DNA of 64,000 nt, from NCBI GenBank assembly GCA_001874265.1, contig MPDD01000005.1:1-64000 (forward strand). Direction: 5' to 3'. Every line of letters starts with the position of its first letter. The stretch's first letter is position 1. The notes under the pieces are model-generated. The model was not told the origin of the DNA. It saw only the letters and a list, made by a program, of their open reading frames with translations, and ran no database searches. Made by a program: the position numbers and the translations under genes. This document shows, in pieces, positions 4,892 through 21,047 of the stretch. This DNA is from Bacteroidetes bacterium MedPE-SWsnd-G1 (lineage in GTDB: Bacteria; Bacteroidota; Bacteroidia; Flavobacteriales; Flavobacteriaceae).

Positions 4892-7024
4892 TTACTTATA
4901 TTTCATAGATAATTGAATTCGCTTCCGTTGCACGTCCACTTCTAGCACTTTTACTATGACTTGTTGATGCAGTGCAACAACTGAAGAAACGTCAGACACA
5001 TATTTATCTGCCAAATTCGAAACATGCACCAGACCGCTTTCTTTAACCCCTACATCCACAAAACATCCAAAATTTGTAATGTTATTTACAATCCCCGGTA
5101 ATAATTGTCCTTCTCGTAAATCGTTAATGGTCCTTATATCTTTATTAAATGTAAATACTTTAGCCGTTTCTCTCGGGTCAACCCCAGGTTTTTCTAATTC
5201 GGAAATGATATCCTTTAAGGTTGGTAAACCCACAGTATCTGTGCAATACTTCTGTAAATTTATTTGTTGTAGAACCGATTTATTTCCAATTAACTCATCA
5301 ACCGATTTTCTTTCATCCTTTGCCATTTTGTTTACCAATAAATAACTTTCTGGGTGCACAGCCGAATCATCTAATGGATTCTTAGCATCTTTAATTCTTA
5401 AAAATCCTGCTCCTTGTTCAAATGCCTTGGCTCCCAATCTCGGTACTTTCTTAATCTCATTTCTCGATTCAAACGCGCCATTTTCATTTCGATACGCCAC
5501 AATATTTTCAGCCAATTTTGGTCCAATACCCGAAACATAACTTAACAAAGGTTTACTTGCAGTATTGATGTTTACGCCAATAGTATTAACACAACTTTCA
5601 ACAACAGCATCCAATGATTTTTTGAGTTTCGATTGATCTACATCGTGCTGGTACTGTCCCACTCCTATAGACTTGGCATCTATTTTAACCAACTCAGCCA
5701 ACGGGTCTGCCAAACGTCTTGCAATAGAAACAGCTCCACGCACCGTTACATCATAATTCGGAAATTCTTCTCGTGCAATTTTTGAGGCAGAGTAAATCGA
5801 GGCCCCTGCTTCACTTACAACAAATACTTGAAGTTCTGAATCAAATCTAATTTTACGAATCAACTGTTCCGTTTCTCTAGAAGCTGTTCCGTTACCAATT
5901 GCAATGGCCTCAATTTTATGCGCATTTACTAAGGAACTAATTTTCTTCATAGCCTCTATAGCTTTGTTCTGTGGCGCATGCGGAAAAATGGTTTCGTTAT
6001 GTTTTAAATCACCTTGCGCATTTAAGCAAACCACCTTACAACCAGTTCTAAATCCAGGATCAATACCTAAAATTCGTTTCTCACCTAAAGGTGATCCAAG
6101 CAACAACTGCTTTAAGTTTTTAGCAAATACATTAATGGCTGTTTCGTCCGCTTTCTCTTTAGCTTTTGCTTGAATTTCATTCGATAACGCTGGCAGTAAC
6201 AAACGTTTATAAGCATCTTTAATAGCCAACGCTATTTGATCTGCACACTCATTGTTTGATCGAATAATTCTACTTTCAATTTTATCCAAAGCCCGTTCAT
6301 TATCTATTTCAATTTTTAGCCGAATAAAACCCTCCTTTTCAGCGCGTAAAATGGCTAATAATCTATGCGAAGGACATCTACTTAAAGACTCTGACCAATC
6401 AAAATAATCTCTAAATTTTTGTGCTTTTTCATCCGTAATTTTTGCCTTAACTCCTTTGGTAGTAATCTGTGCAAACTTTTCTAATTGCCAACGAATATTA
6501 TTTCTGATATCAGTTCGTTCATTTATCCACTCTGCAATAATATGTCGCGCACCGTCCAATGCATCGTCTTCATTTGTTACTTTCGCATTCACATATTTAG
6601 AAGCGATATAATCCAAATCATTTGCGCGTTGACTCATGATTATTTTGGCTAAAGGCTCCAATCCATTTGCTCTAGCAGTTTCTGCCTTTGTTTTACGCTT
6701 CTTTTTATACGGCAAATACAAATCTTCTAAGACAATCAAATTATCAGAACTTTCAATTTTCCGCTGTAATTCGTCCGTTAAAACCTCTTGTTCTTTAAGT
6801 GCTTTTAAAATGGATGATTTCCGTTTTTTTAATTCTTCAAATTGCTCTTTAAACTTTACAATATATCCAATCTGAACCTCATCTAAATTCCCCGTACGCT
6901 CTTTACGATATCTAGAAATAAAAGGAACGGTGCAGTCTTCATTTAACAATTCAACTGTATTGCTAATTGATGCTTCTGACAGGTTGGTAAAATTCTTTAT
7001 AAATTGAATTAATTGGCTACTCAT
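4892..7024 (-). CDS. tex: Tex-family RNA-binding transcriptional accessory protein
   Basis: 710 aa; YqgF-like ILGIDPGFRTGCKVVCLN, HhH region (GIGPKLAENIVAYRNENGAF) and C-terminal S1 domain (GIVNNITNFGCFVDVGVKESGLVHVS). Confidence 0.95.
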   Translation of the reverse strand: MSSQLIQFIKNFTNLSEASISNTVELLNEDCTVPFISRYRKERTGNLDEVQIGYIVKFKEQFEELKKRKSSILKALKEQEVLTDELQRKIESSDNLIVLEDLYLPYKKKRKTKAETARANGLEPLAKIIMSQRANDLDYIASKYVNAKVTNEDDALDGARHIIAEWINERTDIRNNIRWQLEKFAQITTKGVKAKITDEKAQKFRDYFDWSESLSRCPSHRLLAILRAEKEGFIRLKIEIDNERALDKIESRIIRSNNECADQIALAIKDAYKRLLLPALSNEIQAKAKEKADETAINVFAKNLKQLLLGSPLGEKRILGIDPGFRTGCKVVCLNAQGDLKHNETIFPHAPQNKAIEAMKKISSLVNAHKIEAIAIGNGTASRETEQLIRKIRFDSELQVFVVSEAGASIYSASKIAREEFPNYDVTVRGAVSIARRLADPLAELVKIDAKSIGVGQYQHDVDQSKLKKSLDAVVESCVNTIGVNINTASKPLLSYVSGIGPKLAENIVAYRNENGAFESRNEIKKVPRLGAKAFEQGAGFLRIKDAKNPLDDSAVHPESYLLVNKMAKDERKSVDELIGNKSVLQQINLQKYCTDTVGLPTLKDIISELEKPGVDPRETAKVFTFNKDIRTINDLREGQLLPGIVNNITNFGCFVDVGVKESGLVHVSNLADKYVSDVSSVVALHQQVIVKVLEVDVQRKRIQLSMKYK

Positions 7025-7036
7025 AATTGATTTTCA

Positions 7037-7063
7037 TAAAAAACCCTGAATAAATTCAGGGTT
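7037..7063 (-). terminator. Intrinsic terminator downstream of metG
   Basis: AACCCTGAA-TAAA-TTCAGGGTT stem-loop (7042-7063) followed on the minus strand by a T-run. Confidence 0.75.
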
Positions 7064-7087
7064 CAAATAGTCTTTTAAAAAGGTGAG

Positions 7088-9142
7088 TTAACTCACGCTT
7101 TCTCCATTATTTACTTCTCTTTCTGGCTCAATAAAGGCTAGTTTACCATCCATAGTGTCAGTCATTAAAATCATCCCTTGACTTTCAACTCCTCTAATTT
7201 TTCGAGGTGCCAAATTGACCAACACACTTACTTTTTGCCCGATAACGTCTTCCGCTGAAAAACTTTCTGCGATACCGCTAACAATAGTTCTAGTATCAAT
7301 ACCAACATCGACTTTCAGTTTTAACAACTTCTTTGTTTTTGGAACTTTTTCGGCTTCTAGAATCGTTCCAATTCTAATATCTAATTTTGTAAAATCATCA
7401 AAAGAAATAATGTCCTTTTGAGGCTCTACTTCTTTATTTGCAATTTCATTTGCAACTTTTGTAGCCTCTAACTTATCTAATTGCGCTTGAATGTCTTTGT
7501 CCTCTATCTTAGCAAATAATAATTCAGCCTTTCCAATTTGATGACCAGATGGCAATAAAACTTCCTTTTCTGCTATAGCACTCCAAGAGTTCTCTATTCC
7601 ACTCGAACCGGCATTCAGTATCCCTTTTAACTTCTCTGATGTAAATGGTAAAAATGGTTCGGATAAAGTTGCTAATGCTGTCGCAATTTGTAAAGCAACA
7701 TTCATAATAGTTTCTACTCTTTCAGGATTTTCTTTTACCTGCTTCCATGGCTCTTCATCTGCCAAGTATTTGTTTCCTAAACGAGCCAAGTTCATCAATT
7801 CGCCCATCGCTTCTCTAAATCGATAACGCTCTACAGAATTTGCAATGATTCCAGGATACTCCTTTACTTTTGCAAGGGTCTCTTCATCAACTTCAGAAAA
7901 CTCTCCTGCTGTTGGAACAATTCCATCATAATATTTATTTGTTAGCACCACAACTCGGTTTATAAAGTTTCCGAAAATGGCAACCAACTCACTGTTATTT
8001 CTTGTTTGGAAATCTTTCCAAGTAAAATCATTATCCTTTGTTTCTGGCGCATTCGCTGTTAATGCATAACGCAATACATCTTGCTTTCCAGGGAAATCTT
8101 CTAAATATTCATGCAACCAAACAGCCCAATTCTTAGAAGTAGAAATCTTGTTTCCTTCTAAATTTAAAAACTCGTTGGCTGGCACATTCTCTGGCAATAT
8201 GTAGTCGCCATGTGCTTTTAACATTGCTGGGAAAATGATACAATGAAATACGATATTATCCTTCCCAATAAAGTGTACTAATTTAGTGTCTTTATCTTTC
8301 CAATAGGGCTCCCAATCTTTTCCATTTTCTTTTGCCCATTCTTTAGTAGAAGAAATATATCCAATCGGCGCATCAAACCATACATACAGCACTTTTCCTT
8401 CGCCTCCTTCTACAGGAACGGGAATTCCCCAATCCAAATCACGTGTTACCGCTCTTGGTCTTAAACCATCATCTACCCATGATTTCACTTGACCCAGTAC
8501 ATTGCTTTTCCAATCGTTTTTATGGCCTTCTACAATCCATTCTCTTAACCAAGATTCGTATTTATCTAGTGGTAAAAACCAGTGTTTAGTTTGCTTTAAA
8601 CTGGGCACATTACCGGTAATTGCCGATTTCGGGTTGATTAAATCTGTAGCATTATGACTCGTTCCACATTTTTCACATTGATCTCCATAACTCTCTTCAT
8701 TTCCACACTTTGGACAGGTTCCAATAACAAATCTATCTGCTAAAAACTGATTTGCCTCTTCATCGTATAATTGCTCATCTACCTTTTCAATAAACTTGTC
8801 ATTCTCATACAAATTCTTGAAAAATTCTGATGCTGTTTCATGGTGAACCGGTGCTGAAGTTCTTGAATAATTATCAAACGTAATTCCAAATTCATTGAAG
8901 GAATTTTTAATGATTGTATGATATTTATCTACCACTTGTTGCGGTGTAATTCCCTCCTTTTTTGCTTTTAAAGTAATTGGCACTCCGTGCTCATCAGAAC
9001 CACAAACAAAAGCAACATCATGCCCTTGCATTCGCAAATAGCGCGCATAAATATCTGATGGTACGTAAACGCCTGCTAAATGTCCAATATGAACAGGGCC
9101 GTTTGTATAAGGTAATGCCGATGTAATGGTATATCTACTCAC
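7088..9142 (-). CDS. metG: Methionyl-tRNA synthetase with C-terminal tRNA-binding domain
   Basis: [37 protein letters not shown] zinc motif, [12 protein letters not shown]-terminal EMAP-like domain. Confidence 0.98.
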
Positions 9143-9252: not shown

Positions 9253-10233
9253 ATGTTAAAACAACTTCTGTTATTCGTATTTTCTTTTAGTATTACTCTT
9301 AGCTATGGTAATAATTTTAAAAGTGACTTAATTAAACCGCCAAGTCTTAAGAAAGGTGATACCATCTTGATAGTTGCTCCGGCAGGAAAACTTAAAAATT
9401 TAGAGGCAATACAAGCAGGAATTGACCTTGCCGAACAATGGGGTCTAGTTGTGAAGTTAGGTAAATATGTGTTAGGAGAAAGTAGTTCCTTTTCAGGCAC
9501 TGATCAAGAGCGCTTAGATGATTTTCAAAAAGGATTAGACAACCCAAATATTAAAATGATTTGGGCAGGTCGCGGTGGTTATGGAGCTGTCAGAATTATT
9601 GATGATTTAGATTTTACAACTTTTAAAAAACACCCCAAATGGGTCGTTGGTTATTCTGATATTACAGTTTTACATAACAAATTACACGCGTTAGGATATC
9701 AGAGCATTCATGCACAAATGCCAAGTACGTTGGATTTAAAAGATCCCATTCAAGAACCATCTATACAATCACTTTATCAAGTGTTATTTGGTAAAAAATT
9801 AAAATATAGTTTAGAAGGGAACGGAAACAATAGAATTGGAAAGCGTAGAGGTACTTTAGTTGGAGGGAACCTATCCATATTATACAGTATGCTTGGTTCT
9901 GATACAGATTTGGATACTACTGGAAAAATCATCTTCATTGAAGACGTTGGTGAGTATTTATATCATATCGATCGTATGCTGATTAGTTTAAAAAGAGCAG
10001 GATATTTTGAAAAGGCCGCTGGACTAATTGTTGGTGATTTTAGATTAAAAACAAATGATAGCAATCCTTTTGGTAAAACATTACAAGAAGTGGTTTTTGA
10101 AGCCATAGAAGGAACTGATTTTCCAGTAATCTTCGATTTTCCTGCAGGTCATATTGATGATAATAGAACATTAGTTTTTGGAAGTGACGTGAAATTAAAT
10201 GTAACCAAAAATGAATCTAAGTTGTCATTCTGA
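9253..10233 (+). CDS. LD-carboxypeptidase (peptidase family S66)
   Basis: PPSLKKGDTILIVAPAGK, WAGRGGYGAVRIIDDLD, GTLVGGNLSILYSMLGSD; stop codon lies inside the downstream repeat. Confidence 0.93.
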   Translation: MLKQLLLFVFSFSITLSYGNNFKSDLIKPPSLKKGDTILIVAPAGKLKNLEAIQAGIDLAEQWGLVVKLGKYVLGESSSFSGTDQERLDDFQKGLDNPNIKMIWAGRGGYGAVRIIDDLDFTTFKKHPKWVVGYSDITVLHNKLHALGYQSIHAQMPSTLDLKDPIQEPSIQSLYQVLFGKKLKYSLEGNGNNRIGKRRGTLVGGNLSILYSMLGSDTDLDTTGKIIFIEDVGEYLYHIDRMLISLKRAGYFEKAAGLIVGDFRLKTNDSNPFGKTLQEVVFEAIEGTDFPVIFDFPAGHIDDNRTLVFGSDVKLNVTKNESKLSF

Positions 10234-10297
10234 GCGGAATAAAATGAAGTGAAGAATCTCGAGAATAAAGATTCTTCGTTACACTCAGAATGACAAC
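10221..10297. repeat. Palindromic repeat element, copy 1
   Basis: Perfect outer arms GTTGTCATTCTGAG/CTCAGAATGACAAC and inner arms GAAGAATCT/AGATTCTTC; shares its sequence with copy 2 at 10635-10718. Confidence 0.9.
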
Positions 10298-10316
10298 GTG
10301 AAGCGAATTGCTAATA

Positions 10317-10628
10317 ATGAAAACACTCGGAACACATAATTACTATGTCTATATTCTAACCAATAAATTAAAAACTGTACTATACACTGGTGTAACAAAT
10401 GATTTAAAAAATCGAGTACGGTTTCATAGAGAAAATGCCAATTTGAACAAAAAAGCATTTACCTCTAAATACAAGTGTTTTTATTTAATTTATTACGAGC
10501 AATTTAAAGATGTAAATGCGGCAATTAAAAGAGAAAAACAGATAAAAGGATGGTTGCGATTAAAAAAAGATCACTTAATATCAGAGTTTAATCCGAAATG
10601 GAAATTTCTAAATGATGATATTAAATAA
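10317..10628 (+). CDS. Single-domain GIY-YIG nuclease superfamily protein
   Basis: YYVYILTNKLKTVLYTGVTNDLKNRVRFHRE...AIKREKQIKGWLRLKKDHLI; typical small GIY-YIG protein. Track start 10308 is a TTG; ATG at 10317 preferred. Confidence 0.9.
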   Translation: MKTLGTHNYYVYILTNKLKTVLYTGVTNDLKNRVRFHRENANLNKKAFTSKYKCFYLIYYEQFKDVNAAIKREKQIKGWLRLKKDHLISEFNPKWKFLNDDIK

Positions 10629-10634
10629 ATCAAA

Positions 10635-10718
10635 TGTCATTCTGAACGAAATGAAAAGAAGTGAAGAATCTTTTAAGAGAATTAATTGTATAGATTCTTC
10701 GTTACACTCAGAATGACA
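10635..10718. repeat. Palindromic repeat element, copy 2
   Basis: TGTCATTCTGA...GAAGAATCT/AGATTCTTC...TCAGAATGACA; 28 nt AGATTCTTCGTTACACTCAGAATGACAA identical to copy 1, left 36 nt match at 32 of 36 positions. Confidence 0.9.
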
Positions 10719-10739
10719 AAAATCAAACATTTACTAAAA

Positions 10740-11099
10740 ATGGCTCAACATAATGAACTTGGAAAAAAAGGAGAGCAAATTGCCATTGATTATTTGATAG
10801 ACAAAGGGTATACCATATTAGATAAAAATTGGAGGTTTCAAAAAGCAGAAGTAGATGTTATTGCTCAAAAAAATGAACTCATAATTGCGGTAGAAATTAA
10901 AACCAGAACATCTGATTATTTTGGAGACCCTCAAGATTTTATTTCAAAAAAGAAAATAAGCCTACTCGTTTTGGCTATGAATGAATACGTTCTGTCTAAA
11001 AACTTTGATAATGAAATAAGATTTGACGTCATTGCTATTCTCAAAAACAAACAGACCTTTAAAATTGAACATATAGAAGATGCGTTTTTGTATTTTTAA
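10740..11099 (+). CDS. YraN/UPF0102 family endonuclease-like protein
   Basis: MAQHNELGKKGEQIAIDYLIDKGYTILDKNWRFQKAEVDVIAQKNELIIAVEIKTR; track start (10686) reads through the repeat, so start moved to 10740. Confidence 0.9.
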   Translation: MAQHNELGKKGEQIAIDYLIDKGYTILDKNWRFQKAEVDVIAQKNELIIAVEIKTRTSDYFGDPQDFISKKKISLLVLAMNEYVLSKNFDNEIRFDVIAILKNKQTFKIEHIEDAFLYF

Positions 11100-19007: not shown

Positions 19008-20038
19008 TTTTTATTAAACAAATTTAATTTTTGAATCCATTTTGTCTTTTTCTCTAGCATAAGAGCATCCATAATTAAAAAGAACAAAGCAATAGCAACA
19101 AACCATTGGAATTGATCTTTATAATCTGAAAACTGCTTGGTCTCAAACTCACTCTTTTCTGCCTTCAATAATAAATCTTCAACATAGTCTACAGTAGCCT
19201 GCGTTTTATTTCCTAAAATATATTTTCCATTGCCTTTGTCTGCAATTTCTTTTAGAGTTGATTCAACCAATCTTGTAACTACAGTTTCTCCTTTACTATC
19301 TTTTTTATAGCCTTCTAATTTGCCATTAAATTTAATCGGAATTGGTCCTCCTTTTGCCGTTCCCACTCCAACCGTATAGGTTTTAATTCCTTCTTTTGTC
19401 GCTTTGGCGATGGAGCTCGATGCATCTTCTTGATGATCTTCACCATCCGAGATAATAAACAAAAAACGATTTGTTTGTTCATCATCATTATAATAGGTCG
19501 TAGCCATTTCAATAGCATCGTTTATAGCTGTTCCCTGGCTAGATACTAAATTTGGACTTGCATTTTGCAAAAACATTTTGGCCGCTCCTTGATCTGTGGT
19601 TATTGGTAATAACGGATATGCATTACCCGCATAAATGATGATTCCAATTCTATCACTTCCTAATTTATCAACTATTTTAGTAATGATTTGTTTTGCCTTT
19701 TCAAGTCTGTTTGGTGCAATATCTTCAGCCAACATACTTTTAGAAACATCCAGTGCAAATACAATATCTACTCCTTGTCTTTTTACTGTTTCTAACTTTG
19801 TCCCCATTTTTGGGTTAGTTAAAGAAATAATTAAAAATGACAGCCCAAATAAGAAGGCAATGATCTTAACAAAACTCTTAAAATCAGATTTTTCAGGCAT
19901 TAATTTTTCTAACAACTCCGGATTTGCAAATTGTTTCTGTTTCCTTTTTTTCCACCAAAATATCGCAAGGAAAACCGCAAAAATCACCGGAACAGCGATT
20001 AAAAAGGTAAAGTAATATGGTTCTTCTATTTGATACAT
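19004..20038 (-). CDS. batB: BatB-like VWA domain membrane protein
   Basis: GVDIVFALDVSKSMLAEDIAPNRLEKAKQ VWA MIDAS motif; N- and C-terminal TM segments. Confidence 0.93.
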   Translation of the reverse strand: MYQIEEPYYFTFLIAVPVIFAVFLAIFWWKKRKQKQFANPELLEKLMPEKSDFKSFVKIIAFLFGLSFLIISLTNPKMGTKLETVKRQGVDIVFALDVSKSMLAEDIAPNRLEKAKQIITKIVDKLGSDRIGIIIYAGNAYPLLPITTDQGAAKMFLQNASPNLVSSQGTAINDAIEMATTYYNDDEQTNRFLFIISDGEDHQEDASSSIAKATKEGIKTYTVGVGTAKGGPIPIKFNGKLEGYKKDSKGETVVTRLVESTLKEIADKGNGKYILGNKTQATVDYVEDLLLKAEKSEFETKQFSDYKDQFQWFVAIALFFLIMDALMLEKKTKWIQKLNLFNKK

Positions 20039-20042
20039 TGTA

Positions 20043-21047
20043 CTATATAAATGATCTAAAAATTGTAAATCTTAATAACATTTCTAACCCTAAAATAAGT
20101 CCCGCTAATATTACCAAGAATCGGTATCTTTCATCGTAATTGTAATATTTAAACTCCTCTATTTCGGTTTTCTCTAGTTTGTTTATTTCGTCGTAAATAG
20201 CTTCTAACTTTTTATTGTCAGTTGCTCTAAAATATTTTCCTTCAGTTTCAGAGGCTATATATTCTAATAATTCTTCATCAATCTCTACAGGCATGTTTTG
20301 AAACACCAACTTTCCGTTGCCATCTCTATAAGCCGGTGAAGGCGCATTTCCCTTTGTTCCAAGGCCAATTGTATAGGTTTTAATTCCTAATTCTTTAGCC
20401 AATTCTGTAGCCGTTTTAGGATCTACAAACCCAGAATTATTTACACCGTCCGTAAGTAAAATAATAACTTTGCTCTTTGCCTTACTTTCCTTTAAACGGT
20501 TTACGGCAGAACCTAAACCCATTCCAATGGCGGTACCTCCTTCTAATTGCCCCCATTTGATATCATTAATGGTTCTTTTCACGATTCTTTTGTCACTTGT
20601 TATTGGCGTTTGAGTAAAACTTTCTCCGGCATAAATGACAATTCCGATTCTATCACTTGGTCTTTTATCAACAAAATTAGTCGCTACCTTTTTTAAGGCT
20701 CCCAAACGATTTGGTTTTAAATCACGTGCCAACATACTCGCAGAAACGTCAATAGCCATTACAATATCAATTCCTTTATTGGTATTTACTTTTGTGCTAA
20801 CCGATGTAATTCTTGGTCTTGCCAATGCTACAATTAATAAAGAAATCGCAGCCAACCTTAACACGTGTAATATTGGTTTTAATCTTGGTAAAATAGATGG
20901 TTCTCCAAACGATTTTGTACTTGATAAAGTAAGTGATGCTGTGCTTTTTTTACGCAATACAACGTAATAAACAACCAATAGTGGAACCACCAACAGCAAC
21001 CATAAAAACTCAGGATTTGTAAATTCTATGTTATTCCACAACCTCAT
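20043..21047 (-). CDS. batA: BatA-like VWA domain membrane protein
   Basis: NTNKGIDIVMAIDVSASMLARDLKPNRLGALKK; paralogous neighbour of BatB. Confidence 0.95.
   Translation of the reverse strand: MRLWNNIEFTNPEFLWLLLVVPLLVVYYVVLRKKSTASLTLSSTKSFGEPSILPRLKPILHVLRLAAISLLIVALARPRITSVSTKVNTNKGIDIVMAIDVSASMLARDLKPNRLGALKKVATNFVDKRPSDRIGIVIYAGESFTQTPITSDKRIVKRTINDIKWGQLEGGTAIGMGLGSAVNRLKESKAKSKVIILLTDGVNNSGFVDPKTATELAKELGIKTYTIGLGTKGNAPSPAYRDGNGKLVFQNMPVEIDEELLEYIASETEGKYFRATDNKKLEAIYDEINKLEKTEIEEFKYYNYDERYRFLVILAGLILGLEMLLRFTIFRSFI

Follow-up and report, generated by a model that had tools for sequence, protein, structure and literature searches.

A small gene for a GIY-YIG nuclease lies between two palindromic repeats in a 64,000-nucleotide stretch of DNA from Bacteroidetes bacterium MedPE-SWsnd-G1 (GCA_001874265.1, contig MPDD01000005.1, positions 1 to 64,000), hereafter the window. 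This raises a simple question: is the nuclease the partner enzyme of the repeats, in the way that RAYT (TnpA-REP) is paired with REPs? The initial annotation had proposed, with reservations, a REPtron-like unit in which a GIY-YIG enzyme replaces the HUH enzyme. Our comparative analysis supports this proposal and suggests that the nuclease is probably the partner of the [C/T]GTC-tagged (CGTC-type) REPs, although cutting and mobilisation are inferred rather than demonstrated.

Features of the window discussed in the text. Ranges refer to positions in the window; strands are given where assigned.
Coordinates	Strand	Feature	Remarks
9253..10233	+	S66 LD-carboxypeptidase	Left neighbour of the unit
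10210..10233		End of the S66 LD-carboxypeptidase gene	Stop codon (TGA) and last residues (LSF*) lie inside REP monomer 1, so the repeat supplies the end of the gene
10223..10295		First palindrome	Head-head dimer of monomers 1 and 2, 9-nt loop
10223..10259	+	REP monomer 1 (TGTC-tagged, forward)	TGTCATTCTGAGCGGAATAAAATGAAGTGAAGAATCT; left REP (36 nt) starting at 10224
10269..10295	-	REP monomer 2 (inverted)	Right REP ending at 10294
10297..10316	+	Probable remnant of the ORF-proximal REP and leader	CGTGAAGCGAATTGCTAATA, aligned by eye to GTGAAGAATCTAAAATTGCTGATAA before the same start codon in congener G012
10317..10628	+	Small stand-alone GIY-YIG nuclease	103 aa, intact; Pfam PF01541, E 9.6e-17
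10635..10718		Second palindrome	Head-head dimer of monomers 3 and 4, 20-nt loop
10635..10671	+	REP monomer 3 (TGTC-tagged, forward)	Left REP (36 nt) starting at 10636
10692..10718	-	REP monomer 4 (inverted)	Right REP ending at 10717
10269..10296 and 10692..10719		Right arms of the two palindromes	28 nt, identical
10740..11099	+	YraN/UPF0102	Right neighbour; orthologous interval used for the empty-site comparison
19359..19776 and 20356..20776		Direct repeats 1000 bp apart	72-80% identical, probably tandem paralogous genes

The first step was to ask whether the arrangement is real. The two left REPs match at 32/36 positions (89%) and the right REPs are 97% identical; their 28-nt arms are identical, as the initial annotation had stated. 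Each palindrome, of 72-83 nt, consists of two inverted copies of a TGTC-tagged repeat, with the tags outside and the tails inside. Folded as single-stranded DNA, the palindromes reach -16.2 kcal/mol (z -5.4, 0/200 shuffles) and -13.2 (z -3.2, 2/200). The repeat is also dispersed. With up to 3 mismatches, the REP pattern has 16 hits in the 2.7-Mb assembly (85% complete), whereas the reversed-pattern control has 0. Two of these hits are the right arms at this locus; the two left arms are longer and fall outside the pattern. Interestingly, a REP-like remnant (GTGAAGCGAAT) lies just before the ATG of the nuclease, and in G012 the ORF-proximal REP is intact (GTGAAGAATCT). The window's own genome (G000) also carries, at locus L037 (G000:C49), two related GIY-YIG genes 1.9 kb apart (5050-5361 and 6956-7252), both with GAGCCTGTCGAAG-type REPs.

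Is the pairing a peculiarity of this locus? Relatives carry several small GIY-YIG ORFs each, and their flanks contain repeats of several types. For 37 intact ORFs of Flavobacteriales, in stretches of up to 20 kb, the best inverted match between the 150 nt upstream and downstream scores >=32 in 57%, against 0.4% of 269 neighbouring ORFs (p 2e-16). A search of the plasmid collection gave homologues in Sinorhizobium, Shinella, Rhizobium, Sphingobium, Novosphingobium, Azospirillum, Neisseria, Aeromonas, Planktothrix, and Spirosoma. Most of the 14 loci that we read have REPs close to the gene, often as REP-ORF-inverted REP, and two, in R. tumorigenes and Photobacterium, lack visible REPs. We then scanned one genome per species. 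A broad alignment (A1) had no stretch conserved enough for this purpose, and the use of a narrower one (A2) biases the resulting 80 named loci to one nuclease subgroup. Still, these loci come from Pseudomonadota, “Deltaproteobacteria,” Chloroflexota, Zixibacteria, Atribacteria, Planctomycetes, Myxococcota, Nitrospirae, Ignavibacteria, and Patescibacteria. Of the 77 usable ones, 57% score >=32, against 0.8% of 357 neighbouring ORFs (p 2e-20). Counting either orientation at a score >=28, 84% of the Flavobacteriales set and 74% of the cross-phylum set are bracketed, against 4.8% and 4.2% of the neighbouring ORFs. Hence, the association is not specific to Bacteroidota.

We also searched for the repeats with a structural definition ([C/T]GTC, 7-9 bp stem, 3-9 nt loop). 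A REP is present on at least one side in 92% of 76 loci, against 12% (p 2e-43), and six of the 76 fail this strict search. A bracket of REPs with tails facing the ORF is found in 37%, against 0.6% (p 2e-21), with median gaps of 17 nt to the start codon and 23 nt from the stop. One REP on each side, tails inward, is the commonest arrangement, and the dimer-ORF-dimer arrangement of the window is one variant. Since both REPs and these genes are intergenic, one could imagine that they simply collect in non-coding gaps. The comparisons with neighbouring ORFs make this very unlikely, even if these controls are not intergenic spaces of matched length, and so does the type-specific pairing described below. 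Cross-paired flanks were a poor control for the named loci because most of these share one REP type (36% of cross pairs score >=32).

What kind of repeat is this? Di Nocera and colleagues (PMC3733652) defined a superfamily of REPs tagged CGTC (often TGTC), with 8-9 bp stems opening with AT, 4-5 nt loops, CCA tails, and mostly head-head dimers. It was described in five phyla, includes Neisseria dRS3 and Rickettsia RPE-4/RPE-6, and was said to “apparently lack a dedicated transposase.” Many of the cross-phylum bracket REPs, for example CGTCATTCCCGCGAAGGCGGGAATCCA, and some of those in Flavobacteriales fit this definition closely; CGTCATT is found in most bracketed cross-phylum loci. Several of the CGTC-bearing taxa of that study are among our nuclease hits. 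The repeat of the window shares the tag and the AT opening (TGTCATTCT), and both of its palindromes have the dimer form, but it is longer, has an imperfect inner stem, and ends in CT rather than CCA. We therefore call it CGTC-type rather than a proven member. REP/RAYT REPtrons and REPINs also have a small gene bracketed by REPs, REP dimers elsewhere in the genome, and type-specific pairing of enzyme and repeat. Yet RAYT is a Y1-HUH transposase associated with GTAG-tagged REPs, whereas only the GIY-YIG domain was matched here and the tag is [C/T]GTC. The recurrent pairing with a nuclease gene is what is new relative to the published survey of CGTC REPs, and we found no earlier report of it in a search restricted to open-access papers and without preprints.

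Across genomes, loci with similar nucleases have similar flanking repeats even at non-orthologous sites: a flank match >=30 rises from 5% of pairs (protein similarity <0.35) to 83% (>=0.7), with a permutation p of 0.0005, and also 0.0005 when flanks are shuffled only within each genome. In 101 genomes of Flavobacteriaceae, window-type REPs (REP-A) co-occur with the nuclease clade of the window (clade A; 4/5 vs 8/96, p 6e-4) and CCTGC-type REPs (REP-B) with clade B (11/12 vs 24/89, p 2e-5), while the crossed pairs are not significant (p 0.57 and 0.15). These co-occurrence tests are not corrected for phylogeny, although there is nearly one genome per genus, and the clade cut-offs were set after seeing the hits. 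Thirteen CCTGC-type sites lie within 150 bp of clade-B genes, where 0.014 are expected for uniform placement. The matching is not absolute. Some REP-rich genomes lack the matching nuclease clade (G006 with 20 sites, G132 with 24, G138 with 12, and G152 with 19), and G019 has 24 CCTGC-type REPs with only a stop-riddled GIY-YIG remnant (G019:C11:2628-2921). The enzyme is thus not needed for the persistence of REPs, which outlive it or do without it.

Does the unit move? In the S66-YraN interval, ten of the congeners searched lack the ORF, and five of these (G004, G008, G010, G011, and G013) have a gap under 20 nt. The ORF is found in G000, G012, and probably G003, where S66 is next to the ORF on one contig and REPs are next to YraN on another. 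Other congeners hold other REP types there. In Neisseria, N. gonorrhoeae and N. viridiae share a 525-nt block at 95% identity in different gene neighbourhoods, starting at a CGTC tag and ending at a REP. A search with the upstream flank was swamped by repeats and we used pdxA as the query instead. At the N. viridiae site (pdxA-rne), resolved at about 98% identity of the flanking gene, N. viridiae has a REP dimer plus the GIY unit and N. gonorrhoeae has one REP dimer and no ORF. Genome G162 has a REP cluster and no ORF in the 1.2 kb read, and genome G158 has no REP. A second N. viridiae copy, 98.9% identical in the ORF, is a 432-bp contig whose title gives a coverage of 121, against about 36-41 for two other contigs of that genome, which suggests about three collapsed copies.

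These edges could also result from recombination between REPs, for example after natural transformation in Neisseria, moving passively whatever lies between them while the nuclease has an unrelated role. The repeat-rich Neisseria loci are compatible with this process. However, it does not predict that the same gene family is captured in many phyla, nor the covariation and the double dissociation between nuclease clades and REP types, and we regard it as unlikely. Alternatively, the protein could be a true transposase that cuts and rejoins DNA at the REP ends and mobilises solitary dimers in trans, as in MITE/REPIN-like elements. The tail-in inverted REPs close to the ORF and the solitary dimers with unrelated loops do resemble an autonomous/non-autonomous pair. 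This also seems unlikely: GIY-YIG enzymes appear to hydrolyse DNA, apparently with no known strand-transfer step, the orientation of REPs around the ORF varies, and no target-site duplication was seen in the comparisons made here.

How could such an enzyme act? An alignment of the family (A3) keeps the GIY-YIG active site, with Y12, Y23, G25, R33, and E73 invariant and H37 at >=90%. The predicted structure (pLDDT 92) is closest to the UPF0213 protein BH0048 (1zg2) and then to SLX1, and a profile search agrees on UPF0213 (BH0048, EF2693). NCBIfam gave no match and PHROGs gave only weak homing-endonuclease hits. SLX1 is a repair nuclease of eukaryotes that works with SLX4 and cleaves branched DNA (PMC6902002). 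The nuclease could be a domesticated caretaker that trims or resolves REP cruciforms and controls REP load, remaining near REPs because it binds them or is regulated by them. The SLX1-like predicted fold, the conserved active site, and the presence of a few copies per genome in Flavobacteriales would fit this role. Yet the patchy presence, the different positions in congeners, the decayed copies, and the tandem fragments, such as those interleaved with REPs in genome G073 (G073:C20:45721-46687), look selfish rather than house-keeping, and we consider this explanation improbable.

We favour, with moderate confidence and in the absence of biochemical data and of a precisely mapped target site or duplication, the interpretation that the small stand-alone GIY-YIG protein is the partner nuclease of the CGTC-type REPs and that REP-GIY-REP is a selfish mobile unit of about 0.35-0.55 kb. 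We infer that the SLX1-like enzyme recognises the REP, most likely as an extruded hairpin or cruciform of a head-head dimer, and cuts there, and that the break is repaired from a REP-GIY-REP copy by REP homology. The ORF would thus be copied into REP sites, a form of homing into palindromes, and solitary dimers would be target sites and/or ORF-less relatives. Free-standing GIY-YIG homing endonucleases of the I-TevI type may also spread by cutting a target and being copied in, but here there is no intron and no added DNA-binding domain, and the proposed target is a dispersed palindrome family instead of one allele. The REPtron-like proposal passes the genomic tests suggested in the initial annotation (genome and relative scans, proximity enrichment, co-occurrence by type, and orthologous empty sites), and neither of the genomic outcomes that would have contradicted it was observed. 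A survey of GIY-YIG domains (PMC1564403) describes one recently inserted in an HsdR gene, which fits a mobile unit.

Such a partnership bears on how CGTC-type REPs move, which their survey left open because no transposase gene was linked to them, and suggests a second solution to REP dispersal, enzymatically unrelated to RAYT. It also gives a likely role to a large family of small “GIY-YIG nuclease family” genes, some of them labelled “excinuclease ABC subunit C.” More tentatively, it remains possible that this is a new class of prokaryotic mobile system, in which a nuclease recognises palindromic repeats by their folded form and spreads both itself and a CGTC-type REP population, explaining the origin of one of the two REP superfamilies across many phyla, although our evidence does not explain which step moves solitary REPs to new places.

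In Azospirillum lipoferum, the GIY-YIG gene with its REPs sits between sufB and sufC (locus L078, 1489-1782). In two other loci (L016, 1489-2841; L026, 1465-2802), the GIY-YIG ORF is in frame with a downstream kinase-like ORF of about 450 aa, and the junction reads through REP-like sequence. Finally, a different small GIY-YIG subfamily lies next to tRNA genes (L025, 1364-1850; L034, 1378-1873; also L019 and L023). In L025 and L034 the tRNA 3' end and its terminator hairpin are repeated after the ORF, and in L034 a truncated second copy of the ORF start follows, which looks like insertion at tRNA ends.
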